Origin: Bacteroidales bacterium | GTDB lineage: Bacteria > Bacteroidota > Bacteroidia > Bacteroidales > F082 | NCBI GenBank assembly: GCA_017508895.1 | Contig: JAFWRA010000141.1 | Location: forward strand, 1 to 64,000 | Reading direction: 5' to 3' | Length of the DNA: 64,000 nt | Shown here: piece after piece, positions 18,454-48,035 of the stretch | Position numbering within the stretch: position 1 is the first letter of the stretch | Layout: each line of letters starts with the position of its first letter | The notes under the pieces: model-generated | The model's input: the letters and a program-made list of their open reading frames with translations, nothing else | The model's database searches: none | Told to the model about the DNA's origin: nothing | Position numbers and translations under genes: made by a program

Positions 18454-18531
18454 AATCGTAAAACTACTGAGTTTGGTGCATCAACAATATGCGACGGCAT
18501 GTATCGATAAAGCCCGTCTTAGGCGGGCTTT
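18454..18531 (+). ncRNA. Candidate small RNA antisense-adjacent to the DAHP synthase gene (speculative)
   Basis: A full TAnnTTTG match (TACTTTTG, 18440-18447), with TTG at 18417-18419 in -33 position, points into a gap without a plus-strand gene. About 80 bases downstream lies the hairpin 18509-18531. No convincing reading frame follows the promoter. The convergent DAHP synthase gene ends at the same hairpin. This is a sequence-only guess. Confidence 0.25.
18509..18531. terminator. Hairpin at the end of the DAHP synthase/chorismate mutase gene
   Basis: AAAGCCCG (18509-18516) pairs with CGGGCTTT (18524-18531) around TCTTAGG, extendable by two more pairs. It overlaps the stop codon at 18530-18532. 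There is no U-tract on either side, so termination strength is uncertain. Confidence 0.45.
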
Positions 18532-19774
18532 ACTCGTTGTCACCTTCCATAATACAACTTTGCCGCTCAATGGAAGCCTGATGGATGGCTTCGAAAACCT
18601 CAACGATTAATGAATCGGGCAAACCCAAATCGATGCCTGTGGCGACATGGTCAGCCAGAATCTTTTTCCAGCGGTCCATCTGCACCACGGTGACGTTGTT
18701 ACGCTTCTTGTATTCACCAATTTGCGCACTCACCTCCATACGTCGTGCCAGAAGTTGAATCAGTTCACTGTCAATATCATCAATCTCGCCACGAAGTCCG
18801 GCCAAGTCGCGTTCCACATTACCCGACTGCTTTGATCGGAATGTCAAGTTGGCCAGCAACTGCTTTAACGCTTCGGGGGTGATTTGCTGTTTGGCATCGG
18901 TCAAAGCTTCTTCAGGATGGATATGACATTCTATCATTAATCCATCAGTGGCTAAGTCGAGGGCTTTTTGTGCTGTGGCTTGCAGCAGTTCGCGGTTGCC
19001 GCAGATGTGGCTCACATCGGTGATGAGCGGTACATTCAATCGCTGCGTCAGCTCAATGGGAATCTCCCACATGGGGAAGTTGCGGTAAGGCGACTCTTTA
19101 TAATAAGCGAAACCACGATGGATGGCGGCCAGTTGAGTCAAGCCAGCCTTCTGGAACCGCTCGAAAGCCCCCACCCATAAGTTAAGGTCGGGCGAGACTG
19201 GGTTTTTGATGAACATGGGGATGTCAACGCCACGCAGTGCGTCAGCCAATTGTTGCACCGAGAACGGGTTGACTACCGTGCGGGCACCAATCCAAAGTGC
19301 ATCGACGTCGTATTTCAGAGCCAATTCGACATGTTCTGGTGTAGCAACTTCAGTAATGATGGGCAAGCCTGTCTCTTGCTTCGCTTCGCGGAGCCAGACG
19401 AGGCCTTGCTCTCCCCTACCCTCGAAGGCATCGGGGCGTGTGCGGGGCTTCCAGATGCCACCGCGGAGCATCGTCACCTCAGGGATTTTGGATAGGGCTT
19501 GCGCCGTGGCGAGGATTTGGTCTTCGCTTTCTACGCTGCAGGGGCCAGCGATGATTATCGGTTCTTCGTTTGTAAAAGCAGGGGATGAATCCACCTGCTT
19601 AATGTCCTGCGTCCCTACGGGACTGGGCGAAACCCCGTAGGGGTGACGGACATTAAGCAGGTTGTGAAACTCCTGCTCACAACCAACTACCGACTCTGAA
19701 GAAACCCCGTAGGGGTGATAGGAATCCGCCTCGTCAATCCCTAAATGCATATCGTTCGTCATACTCGATTCCAT
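18530..19774 (-). CDS. DAHP synthase fused to chorismate mutase; N-terminus runs through repeats
   Basis: Bifunctional enzyme of the shikimate pathway. The first domain condenses PEP and erythrose-4-phosphate to DAHP; the second turns chorismate to prephenate. The synthase is the KDO8P-synthase-like type: IIIAGPCSVESEDQ (from residue 71), MLRGGIWKPRTRPDAFEG, IITEVATPEHVE, DALWIGARTV, MIECHIHPEEALTD. The AroQ helices follow (LRGEIDDIDSELIQLLARRMEVSAQIGEYKK). Residues 1-60 are not enzyme-like: they include two copies of HPYGVS, encoded by palindromic repeats at 19594-19716, and the first 14 codons overlap the transposase gene. A GTG at 19594 (residue 61) would give a normal 354-residue enzyme. 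I list the longest frame, but the true start is probably internal. Confidence 0.9.
   Translation of the reverse strand: MESSMTNDMHLGIDEADSYHPYGVSSESVVGCEQEFHNLLNVRHPYGVSPSPVGTQDIKQVDSSPAFTNEEPIIIAGPCSVESEDQILATAQALSKIPEVTMLRGGIWKPRTRPDAFEGRGEQGLVWLREAKQETGLPIITEVATPEHVELALKYDVDALWIGARTVVNPFSVQQLADALRGVDIPMFIKNPVSPDLNLWVGAFERFQKAGLTQLAAIHRGFAYYKESPYRNFPMWEIPIELTQRLNVPLITDVSHICGNRELLQATAQKALDLATDGLMIECHIHPEEALTDAKQQITPEALKQLLANLTFRSKQSGNVERDLAGLRGEIDDIDSELIQLLARRMEVSAQIGEYKKRNNVTVVQMDRWKKILADHVATGIDLGLPDSLIVEVFEAIHQASIERQSCIMEGDNE
19594..19716. repeat. REP-like nested hairpins behind the RAYT gene
   Basis: CCTGCTTAATGTCC (19594-19607) is inverted perfectly as GGACATTAAGCAGG (19648-19661). Inside it CCCTACGGG (19613-19621) pairs with CCCGTAGGG (19634-19642). 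Next GGTTGTGA (19660-19667) pairs with TCACAACC (19677-19684). The unit ACCCCGTAGGGGT occurs twice, at 19632-19644 and 19704-19716. The block starts 18 bases after the transposase stop codon and lies inside the open frame of the DAHP synthase gene. Confidence 0.8.
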
Positions 19775-20286: not shown

Positions 20287-21726
20287 GTGAAAAGAGTAGA
20301 AATCAAGCAAGCCTTGCAGATGCAAGCCTCTGACAATGAGATTACTGTAATGGGCTGGGTGCGCAACAAGCGCGGCAGCAAGAACGTGGCCTTCATCGCC
20401 CTCAACGACGGCTCCACCATCAACAACCTTCAGTTGGTCGTCGACCTGAACGTCATCCCCGAAGAAAAACTGGCCTTAATGCATGCCGGTGCCTCACTTT
20501 GGGCCAAGGGTGTCCTTGTCGCCTCAATGGGCAGCGGCCAAGCTGTGGAGCTTTCCGTGAAGGAGATCGGCTTGTTCGGTCCCGCCAACCCCGACGAATA
20601 TCCGTTGCAACCCAAGAAACATTCCTTGGAGTTCCTGCGCGACATCGCCCACTTGCGTTTCCGCACCAACACTTTCGGTGCCGTCATGCGTCTGCGTCAC
20701 GCCATGGTGTTTGCCATCCATAAGTTCTTCACCGAGCGAGGCTTCTACAACATTCACACGCCACTCATCACGGCATCAGACTGCGAAGGCGCTGGCGAGA
20801 TGTTCCAGGTGACCACCTTGGACCTCAACAACCCGCCCCGCGATGAACAAGGCAATGTTGACTACAAGCAAGATTTCTTCGGCAAGTCGACCAACCTCAC
20901 CGTTTCGGGTCAGCTCGAAGGCGAGTTGGCAGCCACAGCATTGGGCAAGATTTACACCTTTGGTCCGACCTTCCGCGCCGAGAACTCCAACACCACACGT
21001 CACCTGGCCGAGTTCTGGATGATCGAACCTGAGATGGCTTTCTACGACATCAACGACAACATGGACCTCGCCGAGGAGATGCTGAAATACTTGATCCAAT
21101 ACGCTTTGGACAACAACATGGACGACCTCCAGTTCCTCAGCAAGCGCCTGCAAGACGAAGAGAAGGGCAAGAAAGAGGAAGACAAGTCGATGGAGCTCAT
21201 CAGCAAGTTGCACTTTGTGCTGGAGCATGAGTTTGTCCGTCTAACTTATACAGAGGCCATCGACATCCTGCGCAACTCCAACTACAACAAGAAGGGCAAG
21301 TTCCAGTATCCCGTCACGGGTTGGGGCATCGACCTGCAGTCGGAGCACGAGCGTTACCTCGTCGAAAAGCACTTCAAGAAACCTGTCATCCTGACAGACT
21401 ACCCGAAGGAAATCAAAGCCTTCTACATGAAGCAGAACGAAGACGGCAAGACCGTCCGCGCCATGGACGTGCTCTTCCCCGGCATCGGTGAAATCATCGG
21501 AGGTTCAGAGCGTGAGACCGATATTAATAAGATCCTCGACCGCATGCACGAGGTCGGCATCCCTGAGGAATCCATGAACTGGTACCTCGACAGCCGTCGC
21601 TTCGGCTCGGTGCCGCATTCGGGCTACGGCCTCGGTTTCGAGCGTCTGCTGCTCTTCATCACCGGCATGACCAACATCCGCGACGTCATCCCGTTCCCGA
21701 GAACACCGAAGAACTGCCTATATTAA
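20287..21726 (+). CDS. asnS: Asparaginyl-tRNA synthetase
   Basis: Charges tRNA-Asn with asparagine. The 479-residue class IIb enzyme has the N-terminal OB fold ([25 protein letters not shown], residues 18-43) and the catalytic domain: motif 2 [22 protein letters not shown] and motif 3 [17 protein letters not shown] near the C-terminus, ending PRTPKNCLY. Those details separate it from AspRS. The start is GTG at 20287, which matches the family N-terminus [10 protein letters not shown]; no closer ATG fits. A repeat follows between it and rpoN, with which it may be cotranscribed. Confidence 0.97.
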
Positions 21727-21730
21727 TGCA

Positions 21731-21797
21731 GAATGAAGAATGCAGAATGCAGAATTATAATAGTGACAAACGATTCTGCATTCTACATTCTACATTC
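21731..21797. repeat. Intergenic inverted repeat between asnS and rpoN (GCAGAATGCAGAAT family)
   Basis: A 25-base arm at 21731-21755 (units of GAATGCA) is inverted at 21773-21797 with two mismatches, around a 17-base centre. The left end supplies an ATG overlapping the asnS stop codon and an open frame into rpoN, but that N-terminal extension is repeat-encoded. The same repeat family appears inside the coding region at 36978-37016. Confidence 0.75.
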
Positions 21798-21809
21798 ATA
21801 ATTCAACAG

Positions 21810-25022: not shown

Positions 25023-26072
25023 ATGAAACTCTCACAATTTAAATTTAACCTGCCGAGCGAGCTGATTGCACTACAGCCATCACAAAACCGCGATGAAGCC
25101 CGCTTGATGGTCGTTGACCGCAAGACTGGAAAAATCGAACACCGCATTTTCAAGGACCTGGTGGATTATGTTAAAGACGGCGATGTGTTTGTCATCAACA
25201 ACACCAAGGTGTTTCCCGCCAAACTCTACGGCGAGAAGGAGAAAACTGGTGCTAAGATTGAAGTGTTGCTGCTCCGTGAGCTGGACCACGAGAGCCGCCT
25301 TTGGGATGTGCTCGTCGACCCGGCCCGTAAAATCCGCATCGGCAATAAACTCTATTTCGGCGAAGGCGACGAACTGGTGGCCGAGGTCATCGACAACACC
25401 ACCTCGCGCGGCCGCACGTTGCGTTTCCTCTACGACGGCACCTACGACGAGTTCAAGAAAACCCTTTCCGGACTCGGACATACCCCCATCCCGAAGGAAC
25501 TCAATCGCGACGAACGCCCCGAAGACGCAGAAGACTTCCAGACCATTTATGCCAAAGTAGAGGGCGCCGTCTCTGCCCCTACCGCTGGCATGCACTTCAG
25601 CAAGATTTTGATGAAACGTTTGGAAATCGTTGGTGCCTCCTTCGCCGAGCTAACCCTGCATCCTGGCATGGGCAACTTCCGTGACATCGAAGTGGAAGAC
25701 CTCACCAAGCACAAACCCGATTCGGAAGAGATGTACATCGACGAGGAATGCTGCACTCTGGTCAACGAGGCCAACGCACGCCACAACAATGTGTTTGCCG
25801 TGGGCACCACCTCATTGAAGGCCCTTGAGACAGCCATGACCATCGGTGGCAAAATCAAGCCCTACAAAGGCTGGACGAACAAGTTCATCTTCCCGCCCTA
25901 CACCTTCTCAGTGGCCAATTGTATGATTACCAACTTCCACCTGCCCAAATCGCCTATGATGATGGAAGTGGCAGCGTTTGCCGGCTACGACCTGCTCATG
26001 AAAGCCTACAAGGAAGCTATTGCAGAGAAGTATCGTTTCTTCACTTATGGTGACGCGATGCTGATTATATAA
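25023..26072 (+). CDS. queA: S-adenosylmethionine:tRNA ribosyltransferase-isomerase QueA
   Basis: Makes epoxyqueuosine in tRNA by transferring the ribosyl part of SAM to preQ1. The 349-residue protein has the family's hallmarks: [20 protein letters not shown] start, [37 protein letters not shown], the active-site region [45 protein letters not shown] and the C-terminal [22 protein letters not shown]. Length normal. A strong promoter lies directly upstream, so it is expressed independently of the kinase gene. Confidence 0.97.
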
Positions 26073-26145
26073 GCTGTTAGCTATTAGCTGCTAGCCATTA
26101 GCTTGCAGTGACGCTGCTAAAAGCTAATAGCTAACTGCTAACAGC
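26073..26145. repeat. Intergenic inverted repeat of TAGCTATTAGCT type between queA and glyQS
   Basis: The left arm GCTGTTAGCTATTAGCT (26073-26089) is inverted on the right in AGCTAATAGCTAACTGC and its continuation to 26145, with one seven-base insertion. It starts at the queA stop codon and may act as its terminator. Between it and the next start lies AT-rich simple sequence with repeated TTGAATTTT units (26169-26205). Confidence 0.75.
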
Positions 26146-28879: not shown

Positions 28880-31330
28880 ATGAAAAAGTTATTTACATTA
28901 GCATTAATCTTGTTGGTAGCCACAATGGGCCACTCACAAGTGAGAAAGGTGTCGAAGAACGACGCTAAGAATAAAGTCGCTACCAGGCAAGTCACCAAAG
29001 GCATGGAAAGCTTAAAGAACAAGCAAAGCGAACTCAACAAGACCCGCACCGACGGCGAACTCGACTACACGGTCTACGATTGGCAGACCAACTGGAGCAA
29101 CATCAACCGCACCATCGTTTGGCCTGACGGCACAGTGAACTTCGCTTACAACTATGCATTGGACGATAGCTTCAGCGACTGTGGAACTGGCATTGGCTCT
29201 TACAATGCCATCAATGACGAATGGATTCCGTCAGATGGACGTATCGAAACCGAAAAAACCTGCTTCGGCTCCATTGCTCGTTATCAGGAAAACAGCATTG
29301 TTGTTGCTGCCCAAACTGATTACATGTGTGGCTTGTACATTGTGGAGGACAAAGACAACATAACCCCTAACAGCGTGCCCCCTGTCAGCTACCTCAACCC
29401 CTCATACGATCCTCGCTGCCCCAATGTGATGACCTCGGGAGCCAACCGGGACATCATCCACGTGGTTGCCACTGCCAATAGTGATTTTGGTGTCCCTGGT
29501 GCCGAAGGCGTCAACATGCCCATCATTTACTTCCGTTCGATGGACGGTGGCGAAACTTGGGACAAAGAAAACATCGTTCTTCCCTATATGGGTCCTGAAT
29601 ATGGTTTTGCTTGGGGCAACCACATCTGCTATTGGATGGAAACTACTGATGACAACTGCCTCGCTTTAGTTGTCAACAACCCTTGGAGCGACGGTATGGT
29701 TATCTACAGCTATGACGATGGTGAAACATGGGAAAGAAAGGTATTCTACCATCATCCTGGCATCAACACTACTTTCGACACTTGGTTCATGTATCCGCGT
29801 TGGACCTCCTGTGTCTGGGGAGCCAACGATGAGCTCTGTCTTGCCTACGAGTTTAATTGCATCACTGGTGAACCTGGTTCAAGAAATTACGATCCAAGCA
29901 TTGGCGGTGTTGCATTTTGGAGCGAAAGCCTGCCTTACCATGGTGAGACCCCACCCCCCACTCCTGGCCAGCCCTTTGTCATGAACACTGATTACATACT
30001 CGAACTCTATAATAGCTGGTACAACACCTTTAACAACTACTATAACTGGTACAACCCTTTGCAAGAGATATGGACTGAATTATTTGGCTACATTGAAGAA
30101 GGAAATACATACTATTTAGGTGTTCACGGCAATTATTACTGTGGTCCAGTGGCCATGCCTGTCCTCTGCAAGGTGCCAAATACCGACGATGACCTAATAG
30201 CTGTTTGGATTGCCTTGGATCCAAATAATATGGAATATAATGGCATTTTTTACTTTAAACTCTTCGCCAGCTATTCCCTTAATGGTGGTCTCACGTGGAC
30301 TCCTCAAACCCAACTTACCGACAATTTCATGTGGACACTCAACGAGTTCGTTTATCCACAAGCCGCTGTGATTGGATCAACCCTCGTAGTTGCTGTCCAG
30401 ACTGATAATGAAACGGGTACCTTCATCCAAAACGACGACCTAGATGGTGACAACAACTTTTACCAAGGCTTCACCTTCGATATCAGCGGTTTCATTCCCC
30501 CGGTCCCACCCTCACCACACCCGAATAATTCAGAATGGTACTACGAAATCGAGTGGGACAACGGCGACATCACCTACCAACACTTGGAATGCACAGGCGA
30601 CACCGTCATGCAAGGCAAGCGACCTAAGGTAATCGTGCGCAGCAACACGCATTACGACCGCGAAGAAATCGAAGTGACGCACGAATACATTTATGAAGAG
30701 GATGGCATCGTCTATTGGTGGAATAAGAATTTGGAAGAATTCACCATTCTATATGACCTCAATGCCGATGTGGGCGACGAATGGGAAATCAAAGTCGGCT
30801 TGGAAAGCCTAACCATGCACGTGGATGCCGTAGAGAATTACGAATACGAAGGCTACACCTATCGGATGCTGACAGTGAGCGACCCCGAAGACCTCTTCAG
30901 CGGCGACATCGTGTGCGGCATCGGCCACCTTACCAGTTTCTTCCCCGAACGGCTGATGAACAGAGACAAAAACTACAGCGTGGAAGGCATACGTTGCTAT
31001 TGGGTTGACGGCAACTTGATATTTAAAATCGGCGAGGAAGACTGCGATGCAATTTATGGCGAACTTCATGGAATGGAAGAGATCGGCCCTTCGACAGGCT
31101 CAGGGACTTTCACGGTCTATCCCAATCCAGCCAATGGCGTTTTGTTTGTACGGACGTTGCGCGCAACGTCTCTACCAGACCAGACCTACCGTATCACCAA
31201 CCTCATGGGGCAAACCCTGCTGCAAGGCCACATCACCGGCGAAATCCAGCAGATTGACATTGCAAATTTGCCCATGGGTATGTATTTCATCAGCGCGGGC
31301 GGACAAACTGTGAAATTTGTTGTAAAATAA
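28880..31330 (+). CDS. T9SS cargo paralogue A: Asp-box (sialidase-like propeller) head, shared tail module
   Basis: Secreted protein of 816 residues. The signal peptide is MKKLFTLALILLVATMGHSQ. The head (about 30-540) has three Asp-box motifs of the BNR type: SMDGGETW, SYDDGETW and SLNGGLTW, which indicate a beta-propeller like sialidases; no catalytic residues can be assigned. Then comes a module of about 170 residues shared with paralogues B and C (WYYEIEWDNGDITYQHLECT to GEEDCDAIYGELHG). The C-terminal sorting domain follows (VYPNPANGVL, YRITNLMGQTLLQG, LPMGMYFISAGG, KFVVK), which directs export by the T9SS. A palindromic repeat is embedded in the sorting domain at 31153-31170 and another repeat-like stretch in the linker at 31087-31107. 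First gene of a run of four on the plus strand. Confidence 0.85.
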   Translation: MKKLFTLALILLVATMGHSQVRKVSKNDAKNKVATRQVTKGMESLKNKQSELNKTRTDGELDYTVYDWQTNWSNINRTIVWPDGTVNFAYNYALDDSFSDCGTGIGSYNAINDEWIPSDGRIETEKTCFGSIARYQENSIVVAAQTDYMCGLYIVEDKDNITPNSVPPVSYLNPSYDPRCPNVMTSGANRDIIHVVATANSDFGVPGAEGVNMPIIYFRSMDGGETWDKENIVLPYMGPEYGFAWGNHICYWMETTDDNCLALVVNNPWSDGMVIYSYDDGETWERKVFYHHPGINTTFDTWFMYPRWTSCVWGANDELCLAYEFNCITGEPGSRNYDPSIGGVAFWSESLPYHGETPPPTPGQPFVMNTDYILELYNSWYNTFNNYYNWYNPLQEIWTELFGYIEEGNTYYLGVHGNYYCGPVAMPVLCKVPNTDDDLIAVWIALDPNNMEYNGIFYFKLFASYSLNGGLTWTPQTQLTDNFMWTLNEFVYPQAAVIGSTLVVAVQTDNETGTFIQNDDLDGDNNFYQGFTFDISGFIPPVPPSPHPNNSEWYYEIEWDNGDITYQHLECTGDTVMQGKRPKVIVRSNTHYDREEIEVTHEYIYEEDGIVYWWNKNLEEFTILYDLNADVGDEWEIKVGLESLTMHVDAVENYEYEGYTYRMLTVSDPEDLFSGDIVCGIGHLTSFFPERLMNRDKNYSVEGIRCYWVDGNLIFKIGEEDCDAIYGELHGMEEIGPSTGSGTFTVYPNPANGVLFVRTLRATSLPDQTYRITNLMGQTLLQGHITGEIQQIDIANLPMGMYFISAGGQTVKFVVK
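31153..31170. repeat. Palindrome inside the sorting domain of paralogue A
   Basis: GACGTTGCGCGCAACGTC is a perfect 18-base palindrome, flanked by GTA on the left and TCTAC on the right as in an imperfect longer palindrome. It encodes part of the stretch between NGVLFV and YRITNL, where paralogues B and C carry other repeats. Confidence 0.8.
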
Positions 31331-31350
31331 ACCATTAAAAACATAATACC

Positions 31351-33174
31351 ATGAAAAAAATGATCACTTTAATAGTGCTTCTCACCATGACCCTATGTGC
31401 AAAAGCATCTGTCTACGATTTCATTGCATTTCCAGAACATGTCATTGGGCGAAAGATAAACTCCTCCGGCCAAGTCACAAATGAATACCCCTCCGATTTC
31501 ATCTATAACCAAAACGGCGTATTGACCAGATTCGATTTTCCGACAATGCTTTCAAACACTTACTATTTTGTCGATTACCCTTCTATGGTTTCGTCCGTTC
31601 ATACTAGCTATCTAGGTCATCCCATTATTACAGAAAACCACACCTACCAATACAATAACTTCGACCAAATCATGCACTCGGAACACACCCACTCACAGTA
31701 CGGCATCGCTTATTATGATTATCTCTACGACAATAACCATAAACTGACAAAAATCAACCACGATGTCACTGATCCGGATTATGAATTTCATGAGCAAACC
31801 ATTTATGAATATGAAAACAACTATAGGACCCAAATTGAATACTATTACAGTGGCTATCAAACCTTATTGCTGAGTTCTCGGACAACAAATTGTTATGATG
31901 AAAGACTTCAGATTTTGACATCCCAAATCGAGAAATATAATGGAACAGGCGAAATCATTGCCACTTCACTCAAAACTTATTCATACACGCCCAACAACAA
32001 GACAAACAACATCATCACCCAAACTCTAATTGATGGAGACTGGGTAAACTCAAGCATTATCCAATATGTTTATGATGACAAGGACCGTGTTATCGAATTT
32101 CAGAAGTGGCTGTGGTCAGACGAAAATGAAGATTGGAACATCACCAATAAAATTGTTTATGACTTTAATGACGATGAACAAAAACTCACTATCTCGTTCC
32201 GCAAGACAAACACTACTGGCGAATGGATATGGGACGAATTCTCTAGCCAAACCCTGTTTTATGAATCAGATTTGAACGAATGGCAAAAAGCTATTTCAAA
32301 CTACAAAAACCTTAACATCAACCAATTCGAAATCGATATACATTATGTAACTAAAGAGATCGAGTTCCCGATGCTTTCGGAATGGTATTACGAACTCAAG
32401 TGGGACGACGGCAGCATCACCTATCAACACTTGGAATGCACAGGTGACACCGTCTTGCAAGGCAAGCGTCCCAAAGTCATCGTGCGCAGCAATACACATT
32501 ATGACCGCGATACCATTAACGAAGTGACCCATGAATATATCCTTGAGGAAAACGGCATAGTTTATTGGTGGAACAATACATTGCAGGAATTCACCACGCT
32601 CTATGACAATAACGCTGATACAGGCGACGAATGGGAAATCAAGGTGGGCACGGAGAGCATCATCGTACACGTGGACCATGTGGATGTCTTCGAATATCAA
32701 GGGGGAACATTTAAAATGCTGCAAATCAGCGATGCAAATGACATCTTCAACGGTGACATTATCGTCGGATTTGGCCACATGACCAGTTTCTTCCCTGAAA
32801 AACTGATGAACCAAGGCAAAGGCTTCCGCGTGGATGGACTCCGATGCTACTGGGTGGAAGGTGCCTTGCTCTATCACAACGGTGAAGAGGACTGCGATGC
32901 CATCCATAGCGAACTGCAAGACATTGAAGAACATCCTTCGAAAACCGCTTTCGTGGTGTATCCCAATCCCACCAACAATATCCTGTTTGTAGAGACGCAA
33001 AATCTTGCGTCTCAACCGACGACAACCGAATACAATATCACCAACCTCATAGGCCAAACCCTGCTGCAAGGCCACATCACCGCCGAAATCCAGCAGATTG
33101 ACATTGCAAATTTGCCCATGGGTATGTATTTCATCAGCGTGGGCGGACAAACTGTGAAATTCGTAAAGCAATGA
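31351..33174 (+). CDS. T9SS cargo paralogue B: Tyr/Asp-rich repeat head, shared tail module
   Basis: Secreted protein of 607 residues with signal peptide MKKMITLIVLLTMTLCAKA. The head (about 25-340) consists of beta-repeat units rich in Tyr and Asp that resemble YD/RHS-like repeats (YDYLYDNNHKLTKI, YVYDDKDRVIEFQKW, YDFNDDEQKLTISF). The shared module starts at WYYELKWDDGSITYQHLECT and ends near GEEDCDAIHSELQD. The sorting domain follows (VYPNPTNNIL, YNITNLIGQTLLQG, LPMGMYFISVGG). Its final 107 coding bases are nearly identical to those of paralogue A (two mismatches). The stop codon overlaps the start of the TPR/HTH gene (ATGA), so the two are translationally coupled. Confidence 0.85.
   Translation: MKKMITLIVLLTMTLCAKASVYDFIAFPEHVIGRKINSSGQVTNEYPSDFIYNQNGVLTRFDFPTMLSNTYYFVDYPSMVSSVHTSYLGHPIITENHTYQYNNFDQIMHSEHTHSQYGIAYYDYLYDNNHKLTKINHDVTDPDYEFHEQTIYEYENNYRTQIEYYYSGYQTLLLSSRTTNCYDERLQILTSQIEKYNGTGEIIATSLKTYSYTPNNKTNNIITQTLIDGDWVNSSIIQYVYDDKDRVIEFQKWLWSDENEDWNITNKIVYDFNDDEQKLTISFRKTNTTGEWIWDEFSSQTLFYESDLNEWQKAISNYKNLNINQFEIDIHYVTKEIEFPMLSEWYYELKWDDGSITYQHLECTGDTVLQGKRPKVIVRSNTHYDRDTINEVTHEYILEENGIVYWWNNTLQEFTTLYDNNADTGDEWEIKVGTESIIVHVDHVDVFEYQGGTFKMLQISDANDIFNGDIIVGFGHMTSFFPEKLMNQGKGFRVDGLRCYWVEGALLYHNGEEDCDAIHSELQDIEEHPSKTAFVVYPNPTNNILFVETQNLASQPTTTEYNITNLIGQTLLQGHITAEIQQIDIANLPMGMYFISVGGQTVKFVKQ
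32992..33013. repeat. Inverted repeat inside the sorting domain of paralogue B
   Basis: GAGACGCAA (32992-33000) and TTGCGTCTC (33005-33013) form a perfect nine-base inverted repeat with loop AATC. It encodes the insertion between NNILFV and YNITNL, equivalent in position to the repeats in paralogues A and C. Confidence 0.8.
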
Positions 33175-34514
33175 AAACCCGATGTATATTAATGACCGTG
33201 CTTGTGCTGGCGAGCCTTTCGGCCTGTCGGCATGAGGCGCGCTGGCTCAAAGAAGCGGAGACGCACTATCAGCAAGGCCTCGAACAGCGTGCTGCCAGAC
33301 AGTCGGAGGAGGCGGCCGAGTCGTTCAGCCAGGCGCTGATCGACATCAACCGCTGCGACCAAGACCACCCCGAGGTGAAACGCCTGAAAGCACAAATCGA
33401 GGACAACCTCGGCTTCACCTATTGGAAGCACGAACTGTTTGCCGAAGCCCTGCCGCTGCACACCGACGCCGCCACGCTGGCCCGCGAACTCAACGACTCC
33501 ACCTTATTGATGAACGCCCTGCGCAACTGCGGTCGCGCAACGGCCTCGTTAGGTGATACCGATGCGGCAGAACAGCATTACAACGAAGCCCTTGCCATCG
33601 CCAAGGCCTTGAACGACAAGACCATGGAAAACGAAGTTCTATTGGAATCGAGCCGCGACGTGTATTTGGTGAAGGAAGACTTCGGCCAGGTGATTGAGCG
33701 CATCACCCGAGCACGCGCTGCCGGTGCCGAAGGCGACAGCCAACTGACCTTGGGTCTGGCTTACTATTATCTGGAACAGGACAGCCTCGCCATCGTCCAC
33801 CTCACTGAAGCCACCCATAACGAGATGGCTGGCGTGCGCATGTCGGCCTACCAAAGCCTCTATTTCATCCATCAGATTGAGGAGGACTACCAAAAGGCTT
33901 TGGAATGTCACGAACTGTTCAACGAGAACATGATGCAGGCCAACCAAACCCACCGCAGCGAGCAGGTGCAGCGCATCAAAGCGGAATACGACCTCCAGAT
34001 GCAGAAAAGCCAACTGCAATCGGAACAAAAGCTGAAGAGCCTCTACCTTTATCTCATCCTCGGTCTCTTGTTGGTCGTTTTGGCTATCACTTTGCTACTC
34101 TTGCGACAGAAAACACTGAGTGCCAAGTTGAAAGCCGAAGAGATGAAGAACCAGCTGGAGTTAGAATTGAAGAAAAACAAGGTGTATGTGACCGCCCTCG
34201 CCCTCACCGAGCAAATCACCGCCTCGACCCTTGACTTCGACTTGAAGGAAAATGAATGGGACGACTTCGTGACGCTCATCGACAAGGTCTACAGCGACTT
34301 CACCAAACGGCTAATGGACAAATACCCCACCCTCACCAAGAGCGACCTGCAAATCTGCTGCCTCACCAAGCAAGGCTTCAGCAACCAAGTCATCTCCATC
34401 CTGATGAACCTGCAAACCAACTCCTATGCCCGCCGCAAGTCGCGCATCAAGCAGGAGAAGATGAACGGCTTGGAGGACGAGCGGAGTTTTGAAGAAATTA
34501 TCAATTCGATATAG
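33171..34514 (+). CDS. TPR lipoprotein/membrane protein with C-terminal LuxR-like HTH
   Basis: A 447-residue protein with signal sequence MKTRCILMTVLVLASLSAC (lipobox LSAC), about six TPR-type helical repeats (residues 25-270), a membrane helix (about 290-310, LYLYLILGLLLVVLAITLLLL), a coiled coil, and a C-terminal helix-turn-helix region (PTLTKSDLQICCLTKQGFSNQVISILM). Bacteroidota have many such TPR-membrane-HTH proteins, thought to pass a periplasmic signal to a cytoplasmic DNA-binding or partner domain. It overlaps paralogue B by four bases (ATGA). That suggests a regulatory or assembly link with the T9SS cargo cluster, which is inference. The following 90 bases are simple repeats of GTTGTTCAGTTATTCAG type. 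Confidence 0.8.
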   Translation: MKTRCILMTVLVLASLSACRHEARWLKEAETHYQQGLEQRAARQSEEAAESFSQALIDINRCDQDHPEVKRLKAQIEDNLGFTYWKHELFAEALPLHTDAATLARELNDSTLLMNALRNCGRATASLGDTDAAEQHYNEALAIAKALNDKTMENEVLLESSRDVYLVKEDFGQVIERITRARAAGAEGDSQLTLGLAYYYLEQDSLAIVHLTEATHNEMAGVRMSAYQSLYFIHQIEEDYQKALECHELFNENMMQANQTHRSEQVQRIKAEYDLQMQKSQLQSEQKLKSLYLYLILGLLLVVLAITLLLLRQKTLSAKLKAEEMKNQLELELKKNKVYVTALALTEQITASTLDFDLKENEWDDFVTLIDKVYSDFTKRLMDKYPTLTKSDLQICCLTKQGFSNQVISILMNLQTNSYARRKSRIKQEKMNGLEDERSFEEIINSI

Positions 34515-34606
34515 TTGTCTGTTGTTCAGTTATTCAGTTGTTCAATTGAAATATTGATTCTATGAATCTTAAATCTTTGAATCAAATAATAAAAACCTAA
34601 AATACC

Positions 34607-37150
34607 ATGAAAAAGTTACTTACAATTACAGTTCTAATGGCTTTGGCCTTGGGTGGATTTGCTCAAATCCTCCATTATGATTTCTCTGCTGTTTGTGAGA
34701 CAGGACAAACCTTGTACTACCGTATCTCAAACGAGGAAGAAAAAACAGTAATGCTAACCTACCCGTTTTCGGAAGAAAACTCTTGGTTTACGGGCGATAA
34801 TTATTATGATGGTCATCCTGAGCCACAAGGAGAAATTACTCTGCCATTAACTGTGACTTACAACGATATACAATACTTCATAACCGCAATCGATGACAAT
34901 GCTTTCAATTATTGTTGTGGTTTGACGGGAAACCTAACCATACCCGAAGGTATCGTATCCATTGGATCCAGGGCTTTTCGTCATTGTAACTTTACATCCA
35001 TTACACTACCCAAAAGCCTAGAAGTAATAGTTTCCTTAGATTATGGATACGGTACTCCGTTTGTTTACTGTAGTTCTTTGGAGTCCATTTCTGTTGATGA
35101 CGAGAATCCGATATTCTATTCAGAAAACAATGCCATTATCAGAAGAGAAGATAAAACTTTAGTGGTGGGATGTAAAACAACCACCATTCCAGACGAGATT
35201 GAAACCATTGGCCATTCGGCTTTTCAGGGAGCTGGTGACGGCGGTGATTTGGTTATCCCCAATTCTGTAACAGCTATCAATGACTATGCTTTCTATGAAA
35301 GCCAGTTTTCAGGAACAATCACGTTTTCGGATTCATTGAGATACATCGGTGTGAAGGCATTTAGTTATTGTCATATTTCAGGTTCGCTAAGCATTCCCAG
35401 TTCCGTAACGGAGATCGGGAATTATGCCTTTTCTGATTGTAGTCATTTGACAGGTAATTTATCACTTTCTTCATCACTTTCCACAATTAATAAAAGAGCT
35501 TTCCAACATGTTGGCTGTAATGGTACCTTAATCATCCCAAACTCAGTGAACCATATCGGTGAGGGAGCTTTTTATTTCACTAATTATTCCGAACTTGTTT
35601 TAGGAAATTCTGTCACAACTATTGAAGACAATGCATTTAATAACATCTGGAATAGTATTCATCTAACAGGTGCATTAAAACTACCTACCTCACTCATCGA
35701 AATTGGCCGTGAGGCATTTGCGTACACTGCCTTCGATGAAATCCATTCTCCAAACACGACACCACCCACGCTTAATACACTTGCTTTTCAACAGTGCGAT
35801 AATAATATTCCGATTCATATTCCTTTTGGCTGCACAGAAGCTTATCAAAACGCCGAGGGTTGGAACTATTTCACCAACTTTATCGAAGAAGAGCCTATCC
35901 TTTATACCGACTATGAACCAGACACTTGTAAGTTCATCACTTCCAGCCATGAATCAGACTTTATGTTCGACATTGACCTTGACGGCACAGTCGATATGAC
36001 CCTATCTGGATATACACAACATGGCGCCGTTCTTATTAACATTGCCATGTCGAATGGTTTTCAACTATGTCGCTCAAACGAAAATACCATTTTGAATGCT
36101 GATACAATTAACTGGTTCCAAGCCGATGACCTATCGAATGGATTTCCTTTGGATAGTTATAGAAAAAGATTCGGATTCAGAAAAACTGTTGGCGAGCACT
36201 ACTTCTATGGATGGATGGAAATTTACTGGGATGGTATCTTCGTTCCCGAAGGCAAAATGATCTATTTAGACAGAATGGCTTTCTGCACCATCCCCGACTA
36301 TCCTTTCCGCTGGGGACAAACAAGCTTAGACAGCATAACGATGGAAGGCTCCGAATGGTACTACGAAATCCTCAACGACGACGGCAGCATCACCTACCAA
36401 CACTTGGAATGCACAGGCGACACCGTCATGCAAGGCAAGCGACCTAAGGTAATCGTGCGCAGCAACACACACTACGACCGCGATACCGTCACTGAAATAT
36501 CACACGAATACATCTATGAGGAAAACGGCTTCGTCTATTGGTGGAACAATGAGTTGGAAGAATTCACCACACTTTACAACCTCAATGCCAACGTTGGCGA
36601 CGAATGGGAAATCAAGGTTGGAACTGAAAGCCTCACCATGCATGTGGATGCCGTAGAAAATTACGAATATGAAGGCAGAACCTATCGGATGCTTCATGTG
36701 AGCGACCCCAATGACCTTTTCAGTGGCGACATCGTGTGTGGCATCGGCCACCTCACCAGTTTCTTCCCCGAAAGGCTGATGAATCGAGGAAAAGGTTATC
36801 GTGTGGAAGGCATGCGTTGCTATTGGGTGGAGGGCGAACTGATCTTTAAATACGGAGACAGGGACTGCGACGAGGTGTATGAACAACTGCACAACGGCGT
36901 AGAGGACAACCCTTCGGCAGGCTCAGGGACCTTTGTGGTTTATCCTAATCCTACCAACGGCATTCTCACCATTCATCATTCTGCATTCAGCATTCCGAAT
37001 TCAGAATTCAGAATTACCAACCTCATGGGACAAACTCTGCTGCAAGGCAACATCACCACCGAAACACAACAAATTAATATTGAATCATTGCCTGCTGGAA
37101 TGTATTTCATCACCTTTGCAGGCGAAACACGGAAATTTGTGGTTCGATAA
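34607..37150 (+). CDS. T9SS cargo paralogue C: BspA-like leucine-rich repeat head, shared tail module
   Basis: Secreted protein of 847 residues with signal peptide MKKLLTITVLMALALGGFAQ. Residues about 75-420 are BspA/LRR_5 leucine-rich repeats (LTIPEGIVSIGSRAFRHC, LVIPNSVTAINDYAFYES, LSIPSSVTEIGNYAFSDC). A second domain (about 430-570) has no family that I recognise. The shared module (WYYEILNDDGSITYQHLECT to GDRDCDEVYEQLHNG) and the sorting domain (VYPNPTNGIL, FRITNLMGQTLLQG, LPAGMYFITFAGE, KFVVR) follow. BspA-like repeats are often adhesins, so a surface-binding role is plausible. In its 81-base identity with paralogue A (36388-36468) it is closer to A than to B. Sequence at 36978-37016 is a repeat element read as protein. 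Confidence 0.85.
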   Translation: MKKLLTITVLMALALGGFAQILHYDFSAVCETGQTLYYRISNEEEKTVMLTYPFSEENSWFTGDNYYDGHPEPQGEITLPLTVTYNDIQYFITAIDDNAFNYCCGLTGNLTIPEGIVSIGSRAFRHCNFTSITLPKSLEVIVSLDYGYGTPFVYCSSLESISVDDENPIFYSENNAIIRREDKTLVVGCKTTTIPDEIETIGHSAFQGAGDGGDLVIPNSVTAINDYAFYESQFSGTITFSDSLRYIGVKAFSYCHISGSLSIPSSVTEIGNYAFSDCSHLTGNLSLSSSLSTINKRAFQHVGCNGTLIIPNSVNHIGEGAFYFTNYSELVLGNSVTTIEDNAFNNIWNSIHLTGALKLPTSLIEIGREAFAYTAFDEIHSPNTTPPTLNTLAFQQCDNNIPIHIPFGCTEAYQNAEGWNYFTNFIEEEPILYTDYEPDTCKFITSSHESDFMFDIDLDGTVDMTLSGYTQHGAVLINIAMSNGFQLCRSNENTILNADTINWFQADDLSNGFPLDSYRKRFGFRKTVGEHYFYGWMEIYWDGIFVPEGKMIYLDRMAFCTIPDYPFRWGQTSLDSITMEGSEWYYEILNDDGSITYQHLECTGDTVMQGKRPKVIVRSNTHYDRDTVTEISHEYIYEENGFVYWWNNELEEFTTLYNLNANVGDEWEIKVGTESLTMHVDAVENYEYEGRTYRMLHVSDPNDLFSGDIVCGIGHLTSFFPERLMNRGKGYRVEGMRCYWVEGELIFKYGDRDCDEVYEQLHNGVEDNPSAGSGTFVVYPNPTNGILTIHHSAFSIPNSEFRITNLMGQTLLQGNITTETQQINIESLPAGMYFITFAGETRKFVVR
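36978..37016. repeat. ATTCTGCATTC/GAATTCAGAATTC repeat inside the sorting domain of paralogue C
   Basis: ATTCTGCATTCAGCATTC on the left and GAATTCAGAATTCAGAAT on the right form an imperfect inverted repeat of the same family as the intergenic element at 21731-21797. It encodes HSAFSIPNSEFRI, between NGILTI and the conserved ITNLMG. Confidence 0.75.
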
Positions 37151-37159
37151 ACATGAGCT

Positions 37160-37232
37160 TGTAGGGCTGTCGTACTACGGAAGTCGCTCGATAAAAACGA
37201 CACAGCGGCGGCTACGATGTGACAGCCCTACA
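37160..37232. repeat. Inverted repeat between convergent genes (TGTAGGGCTGTC)
   Basis: TGTAGGGCTGTC (37160-37171) is inverted perfectly as GACAGCCCTACA (37221-37232) around a 49-base centre. It lies between paralogue C and the convergent AsmA-like gene. It could serve as a terminator for both, but there is no U-tract. No other copy in the window. Confidence 0.75.
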
Positions 37233-47854: not shown

Positions 47855-48035
47855 CATGTCATTCCAGCAGAGACATGTGCGTTGGAGGGAAATGCTTTGC
47901 ATTCGACGTAGTCAATCTATGGGAGGCGGTACAAAGAAAGTTACAACCATGATTGACGGCATCAGAAAGCATAGATTGACTACGTCGAATCTTCGATTTC
48001 CATGCCCTCGCTCAGCCCAGCGCTGGAATGACATG
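47855..48035. repeat. Composite 181-base inverted-repeat element (MITE-like)
   Basis: Outer arms CATGTCATTCCAGC (47855-47868) and GCTGGAATGACATG (48022-48035) are perfect inverses. Inner arms of 21 bases at 47901-47921 and 47970-47990 are also perfect inverses (ATTCGACGTAGTCAATC and onwards). A 48-base centre separates them. No reading frame of interest. The structure suggests a non-autonomous element or a very stable folded RNA. It fills most of the 350-base gap between xth and the tRNA gene. Confidence 0.75.

Follow-up and report, generated by a model that had tools for sequence, protein, structure and literature searches.

Repeats at one turn of three sorting domains

The window analysed here, a 64,000-nucleotide stretch of contig JAFWRA010000141.1 from a Bacteroidales bacterium, contains three genes for cargo proteins of the type IX secretion system (T9SS), designated A, B and C, in each of which a repeat sequence encodes the same turn of the sorting domain. 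Gene A (28880..31330, + strand) encodes a protein of 816 amino acids with an Asp-box-like body, for which the Asp-box family PF02012 gave 24.9 bits, under its cut-off of 27, followed by a sorting domain at 31115..31327 (PF18962, E 2.2e-10). Gene B (31351..33174, +) encodes 607 amino acids, with the sorting domain at 32956..33171, and gene C (34607..37150, +) encodes a BspA-type leucine-rich-repeat protein of 847 amino acids (PF13306, E 1.2e-56), with the sorting domain at 36938..37147 (PF18962, E 2.2e-13). All three domains pass the TIGR04183 cut-off of 23 bits, scoring 35.7, 36.5 and 45.3 bits for A, B and C, respectively.

The repeats are named with labels coined for the present analysis. 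The turn between strands 1 and 2 is encoded in A by a palindrome designated P1 (31148..31175, +; core TTGCGCGCAA), translated V-R-T-L-R-A-T-S-L, and in B by a second P1 copy (32989..33016, +; core CAAAATCTTG), translated V-E-T-Q-N-L-A-S-Q. In C the same position is occupied by a tandem repeat of period 7, designated H7, of the form (ATTCNNN)6-ATT (36971..37015, +), translated I-H-H-S-A-F-S-I-P-N-S-E-F-R-I. A preliminary description of this DNA had located the repeats, in frame, after the first strand and before the conserved Y/F-R/N-ITNL motif, and this position was confirmed. It had also taken them for three different palindromes, which they are not. The P1 consensus is GTAGAGACG-N10-CGTCTCTAC, 28 nucleotides running from GTAG to CTAC with a variable, mostly palindromic core, and the copies in A (GTACGGACG TTGCGCGCAA CGTCTCTAC) and B (GTAGAGACG CAAAATCTTG CGTCTCAAC) have these arms in common and are two subtypes of one family. 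The C repeat, (ATTCNNN)n encoding I-x-x-S-x-F-x heptads (IHHSAFS and IPNSEFR, then I, in C), is not a palindrome, although it can self-fold as RNA (z −3.97). A further repeat that had been overlooked precedes the sorting domains of A and C, lying in the linker just 5' of each: CCCTTCGACAGGCTCAGGG at 31087..31105 (+), an exact match that encodes PSTGSG, and CCCTTCGGCAGGCTCAGGG at 36910..36928 (+), with one mismatch to it.

P1 and H7 are each confined to two places in the window. With up to three mismatches the P1 pattern has exactly the two sites given above, against none expected from 100 shuffles, and the 10 overlapping matches to the H7 pattern ATTCNNNATTCNNNATTC (shuffled mean 0.02) fall only in gene C and at 21731..21804. 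The latter site, to which no strand is assigned, is an inverted H7 pair in the interval between a tRNA synthetase gene and rpoN; the intergenic relative proposed for the C repeat thus exists, but the rpoN open reading frame, at its 5' end, also covers it. The stretch 21726-21804 is free of stops in the rpoN frame and could be an N-terminal extension instead of intergenic DNA.

Structural models of the A and C domains (predicted local distance difference test (pLDDT) 87.3, with seven strands, and 86.1, respectively) place the repeat-encoded residues in the turn between the strands at residues 9-13 and 22/23-27/28. This turn is the lowest-confidence stretch of both models, and the strands on either side of it stay intact in both, as had been supposed. 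Searched against the PDB, the A model gave the C-terminal domain of mirolase as its top match (8qb1, E 4.3e-3, TMq 0.69), with 8glk, a NucA substrate, at rank 6; these matches are weak, none reaching an E of 0.001. The published sorting-domain structure, that of RgpB, has the hairpin of strands 1 and 2 exposed at one end, according to the relevant passages of PMC4804311. The same passages describe how PorU removes the sorting domain by cleavage after export in P. gingivalis. If the protein is processed likewise here, the loop would be lost and would not remain on the mature protein. The suggestion that the repeats supply diversity in a surface-presented loop is therefore unsupported as a function, and no test showed selection for diversity.

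Distribution of the repeats across sorting domains and genomes

To survey the turn, a profile was built from 11 domains of the A, B and C types. It isolates a clean subfamily marked by ITNLMGQT, in which members score at least 92 and other domains at most 48. The nearest genome compared (G001), which shares 48% of sampled 31-letter words with the window, has at least 150 sorting domains above the cut-off (150 of 231 candidates scored). The subfamily set comprised 163 distinct domains from all collected loci and the window. With P1 called at up to five mismatches over the 18 arm positions, 131 of their loops contain P1, 19 H7, 7 a cassette designated P3 that translates as RLPQCDSP, 3 a variant palindrome (P2) and 2 another palindrome (P4), leaving 1 without a recognised repeat. 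The term repeat-like, as applied to P2, P3 and P4, refers to a palindromic form or a resemblance to a repeat of the window rather than to genome-wide copy counts. P1 starts at exactly nucleotide 33 in 125 of the 131 P1 domains and is read in the same frame (V-E-T-x-x-x-x-S-L) in every one of them, and the core is exactly one of only nine sequences in 103. The earlier proposal that the loop is a tolerated landing site for repeats was borne out to this extent: 150 of 163 loops contain P1 or H7, both found genome-wide, 12 more are repeat-like, and the flanking strands are kept.

The related loci are the 80 that ranked best among 221 in a scan for which a row of the P1 type served as confirmation, and are hence biased toward P1. 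As a check on this bias, a second sample was drawn with residues 1-770 of protein C, its body, and 120 of the 668 proteins found were classified. Judged at the protein level, 112 of its 114 readable loops are repeat-coded (80 P1, 23 P3, 8 H7 and 1 P2); 75 of the P1 rows were called by pattern and inspected, and 15 rows first classed as other were assigned by eye (5 P1, 8 P3 and 2 none). The remaining six loops were unreadable, three because the domain was out of view and three because it was broken at or after the loop. In three leucine-rich-repeat relatives of C (P0222, P0223 and P0224) the reading frame departs at or directly after the loop. An order-wide sample of 247 genomes gave matches at E ≤ 1e-22 in four, three of the same genus and one of another family (G358), the latter with P1 in both of its two sorting-domain loops. 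One genome (G553) has P1, H7 and P3 loops together.

P1 is far from confined to these loops. The nearest genome has 44 P1 sites (up to three mismatches), compared with 1 for a reversed-pattern control, as well as 280 overlapping H7 matches (control 13) and 45 sites of the linker repeat (up to three mismatches; control 1). All eight further genomes of the genus have P1 (up to one mismatch), with 33 to 77 sites per genome and none for the control, and, of 296 genomes across the phylum (taken to be Bacteroidota), 37 have P1 with exact arms, in 27 of 140 genera. Two of the three reading frames of the arms are without stops. By eye from the open frames, 22 of the 44 sites in the nearest genome were judged to be in frame within real genes, Pfam backing seven of the proteins. 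Counting coding positions, as had been proposed, gives three sites in the strand 1-2 loop, four in a second type of sorting domain and 15 in other proteins, among them Vsr, a methylguanine methyltransferase, and MBOAT, AlkZ-like, BadF-like, EamA and TPR proteins. The loop is thus not special as a landing site. Of the 44 cores, among which are 3 from such loops, 35 differ from a loop core at one position at most, as against 1.1% of random palindromic 10-mers. The preliminary description had named chance as the better explanation should the loop protein occur without the DNA palindrome or the repeats be missing from the rest of the genome. Neither was found, as the 131 P1-type loops keep the palindrome, as defined above, together with the frame, and the repeats occur elsewhere in the nearest genome.

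Several observations concern repeats in other reading frames or positions. In the second type of sorting domain (the G001:C15 cluster, with L129 and L253) P1 occupies a different loop in a different frame, of the CRDAMHCVST type, at the four sites counted above. In another sorting domain, close to its last hairpin, STLRQAQGS is encoded by a CCCTTCGACAAGCTCAGGG repeat at G001:C9:564-582 (L031). Outside the genus, 21 P1 sites were read in 20 loci that belong to different families or classes of the phylum; 19 of them lie within stop-free spans of less than 160 codons, and the idea that P1 is generally coding across Bacteroidota was rejected on this ground. The in-frame use of P1 looks largely local to the genus and its close relatives, the other-family genome noted above being at least one exception.

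The window has further repeats outside the three domains. An inverted repeat of ATTCGACGTAGTCAATCTATG is found at 47901-47990, and its TTGACTACGTCGAAT part recurs within the H7 loop of the A orthologue in the nearest genome and in two relatives (L296 and L339), where it is translated LTTSNASHF. An intergenic inverted repeat of the AGCTATTAGC type lies at 26072-26139. In the open reading frame for DAHP synthase/chorismate mutase (18530-19774, −), the N-terminal stretch (codons at positions 19560-19774) has two HPYGVS copies that stem from a CACCCCTACGGGGTTTC-type repeat; the domain begins at about residue 70, and this is another possible in-frame repeat.

Turnover of cassettes and cores, and its explanations

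The orthologues of A, B and C all lie on one contig of the nearest genome, and the cassettes differ in each pair: P1 in A corresponds to H7 containing another repeat, P1 in B to H7, and H7 in C to P3. The C orthologues have nearly identical flanks on both sides and differ little beyond the loop itself (51 versus 60 nucleotides, in frame). A palindromic repeat, GTAGGGCTGTC...GACAGCCCTAC, lies 3' of gene C in the window (37161..37231, strand unassigned), and its right half resembles the P3 cassette of this orthologue, with 5 mismatches in 29. Loop class differs in 13 of the 22 between-genome pairs whose 500 upstream nucleotides are 95% identical or more, a count in which pairs are not independent, loci being reused, and which used 48 merged genome labels whose merging is perhaps incomplete. 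A script found three clear pairs of different class that differ in the loop only, one of them plain versus H7, and alignment of L162 with L174 gave one more by eye, in which the linker repeat differs too. The CCCTTCGAC-type linker repeat before the sorting domain is present, altered or absent among the near-identical genes L162, L174 and L194. The turn is therefore not a simple landing site, since cassettes and cores have been replaced repeatedly at one position.

The same turnover is seen in an AlkZ-like gene. Of 60 genomes, 35 yielded one match each to this gene (E ≤ 1e-40), so that conversion between paralogues is not a ready explanation there. At one site internal to this gene (residue 244 of 356), 20 of 30 loci have P1, 7 are empty and 3 have other inserts. 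The cores vary between species, and mean pairwise divergence at the site is 0.64 for the core, 0.09 for the arms and 0.21 for the left flank of 45 nucleotides. On a gene tree from which the loop was excluded, core class requires 12 changes, the minimum being 5, and shuffled labels require a mean of 11.8, with 157 of 200 shuffles as low, so that core class fits this poorly resolved tree no better than labels dealt at random. Different P1 cores at one site are also found in two other proteins. One is the methyltransferase, in which P1 is present in 14 of 30 loci, and the other is a protein that we take to be kinase-like, Pfam having yielded no family, with P1 at the site in 16 of 30 (the length comparison covers 25 of the 30 rows, and the core comparison includes one row, L395, with P1 off the site). 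In the latter, conserved gene P1 substitutes for codons, the forms with P1 being two codons shorter than those with 'VEQLETNN'. Two of its loci (L383 and L390) have two consecutive P1 copies, like a dimer of repetitive extragenic palindromes (REPs). In the loop, asymmetric P1 cores divide 33 to 6 between the two orientations, and at the AlkZ site the split is 0 to 5 (Fisher p 4e-4; the sequences are related, and the value is indicative only).

Both at the loop and at the AlkZ site, close relatives retain the arms but have a different core, or a different cassette altogether, and exchange among copies best explains this replacement. We consider it probable that repeats resembling REPs and Rickettsia palindromic elements (RPEs) are tolerated as strand-turn-strand cassettes in a genus of uncultured Bacteroidales from the rumen and that their cores, or whole loops, are repeatedly exchanged among copies. 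The open frames of P1 and H7 would fit a strand-turn-strand, so that copies could persist in exposed turns. Copies may then exchange by recombination or template switching, cores being swapped through the near-identical arms, and cassettes and tails being swapped among paralogues through the flanking sorting-domain sequence. The 28-mer, too, often moves whole, as 23 of 27 TTGCGCGCAA copies have the left arm GTACAGACG. Selection would chiefly purge copies that disrupt the reading frame or a strand, leaving repeats in exposed turns, and the sorting-domain family would display most of them because it is rich in paralogues. A stronger form of this idea, in which P1 is an active genome-wide cassette system whose constant arms serve as exchange sites, so that turns at fixed places in many unrelated proteins are re-dealt from a common stock of roughly a dozen cores at a pace exceeding species divergence, with frame and fold unbroken, is a tentative possibility that we would not expect to hold.

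Several points weigh against exchange among copies. Nearly all of the genomes are metagenome assemblies, in which consensus errors at repeats are possible, and exchange is deduced from comparing genomes rather than from an event seen in culture. Domain swaps often alter the 3' tail as well, mean tail identity being lower in differing pairs (these identities are approximate, the anchor pattern having misplaced some tails), and paralogue conversion alone could explain such swaps. The AlkZ gene tree is poorly resolved, with 6 of 17 inner branches well supported and 8 open. Of its two pairs with 100/100 support, one has different cores, whereas the other has the same core. Transfer of old AlkZ alleles with different cores between species could give part of the pattern. 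In F082 (G004), for which all 33 P1 sites were listed, there is no second copy of the AlkZ core, and hence no donor remaining; G003 has, among the sites listed, a second CAAAATTTTG site besides that in AlkZ. Finally, no transposase was found flanking P1 in the nearest genome, where other recombinases were not searched for.

Four other explanations were weighed, which are not mutually exclusive and whose likelihoods are not shares of one whole. Gene conversion between paralogues alone, with one old insertion per kind of repeat followed by swapping through near-identical 3' ends, would account for the clean separation of the subfamily by profile score, for 3' tails that are 95% identical between A and B and often travel with a swap, and for the genome with three kinds of loop. 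It is unlikely to be sufficient, however, given that the same core turnover occurs in the single-match AlkZ-like gene, that cores differ at one site in two other proteins, and that some genes differ in the loop alone, with near-identical flanks on both sides. Another possibility is that a mobile element with a preferred site inserted many times over in separate events, the model put forward for REPs and their REP-associated tyrosine transposases (RAYTs). In its favour are the GTAG start and 28-nucleotide length of P1, forms without P1 at the AlkZ-like site and those of the two other proteins, and a loop common to several kinds of repeat. We regard it as decidedly unlikely in view of the identical starting codon in 125 of 131 domains and the replacement of codons in the kinase-like gene. 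Mobilisation by a RAYT in particular was rejected: the nearest genome, in which alone the search was made, has only three matches to the Y1 transposase family PF01797, and P1 (up to six mismatches) is absent within 1.5 kb of them.

That a hairpin in mRNA or DNA near the 3' end of the gene is selected, for stability or pausing, with core complementarity kept by selection, would agree with the pairing of P1 core halves at 4.44 of 5 positions (2.00 when halves are re-dealt) and with the RNA folding of the palindromes in A and B (z −2.9 and −5.3) as well as of H7 in C. Yet most cores exactly repeat one or another of a small set of sequences common across unrelated sites, so that copying explains the pairing and selection for a hairpin need not be invoked; moreover, the P3 cassette of the C orthologue shows no excess folding (z −0.28), and the AlkZ site is inside its gene rather than at the 3' end. 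There is little to recommend this explanation. Least credible of all is an artefact of assembly or binning in which repeats were mis-joined. The sources are, as stated, nearly all metagenome assemblies, and contig G001:C39 begins inside such a domain; against this, database proteins encoded on other contigs (P0002 and P0122), with bodies 98-99% alike, have the same loops as A and C of the window, the P1 cassettes are in frame without exception, and the C orthologues differ little outside the loop.

Relation to known repeats

P1 was compared with repeat systems described in the literature, as far as the passages of the cited papers on these elements extend. RPEs are interspersed both between genes and in frame within conserved proteins, and in the gmk case the element is translated and the product is active (PMC2229807, PMC3733652). 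P1 is alike in having in-frame genic copies, by the census by eye given above, in addition to intergenic ones. Its hosts, however, are Bacteroidales assemblies rather than Rickettsia, and its 28 nucleotides compare with 105-146 bp for the best-known kind of RPE (PMC2229807), although there are shorter kinds as well, RPE-4 and RPE-6, both classed with the CGTC repeats (PMC3733652). Those repeats have CGTC at one end (PMC3733652), whereas P1 ends in CGTCTCTAC and has CGTC internally. P1 also occupies the same codon of a paralogue family with replacement of its core, which the passages on RPEs do not describe. GTAG REPs are palindromes of 20-40 bp with GTAG at one end, they form subfamilies with alternative complementary stem residues, some are intragenic, and those in Xanthomonas recB lie at about the same site (PMC3733652). 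P1, as a GTAG...CTAC palindrome, falls within this size class, but the REP tag is unpaired (PMC3733652), whereas the GTAG of the P1 consensus has its complement in the closing CTAC. In the nearest genome no RAYT with P1 at its flanks was found, and the filling of one loop family by unrelated kinds of repeat is not described for REPs in the passages of PMC3733652. P1 thus works like an RPE while differing in host and end motif, and it resembles a GTAG REP, but with a paired tag and, in the nearest genome, no RAYT nearby. As for miniature inverted-repeat transposable elements, forms with and without P1 differ by replacement, and a clean target-site duplication is not readable. The sorting domains themselves match the T9SS type A family (TIGR04183/PF18962), with which the fold search agrees weakly; what sets the subfamily apart is a turn built from repeats. 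Literature searches, outside whose scope most subscription papers fall, found none on T9SS with in-frame palindromes or on T9SS with gene conversion, and a text search for GTAGAGACG gave no relevant title among the matches listed.

Prior papers, in the passages available, treat protein-coding palindromes mostly as scattered, tolerated insertions. Here, one turn of a whole paralogue family is filled by repeats, unrelated kinds of repeat occupy the same slot and close relatives differ in which kind they have. Near T9SS sorting domains, assemblies from metagenomes and alignments of orthologues should accordingly be handled with caution. The arrangement also offers a natural system for studying the exchange of short repeats between sites, and a route whereby normally intergenic DNA provides exchangeable protein loops.

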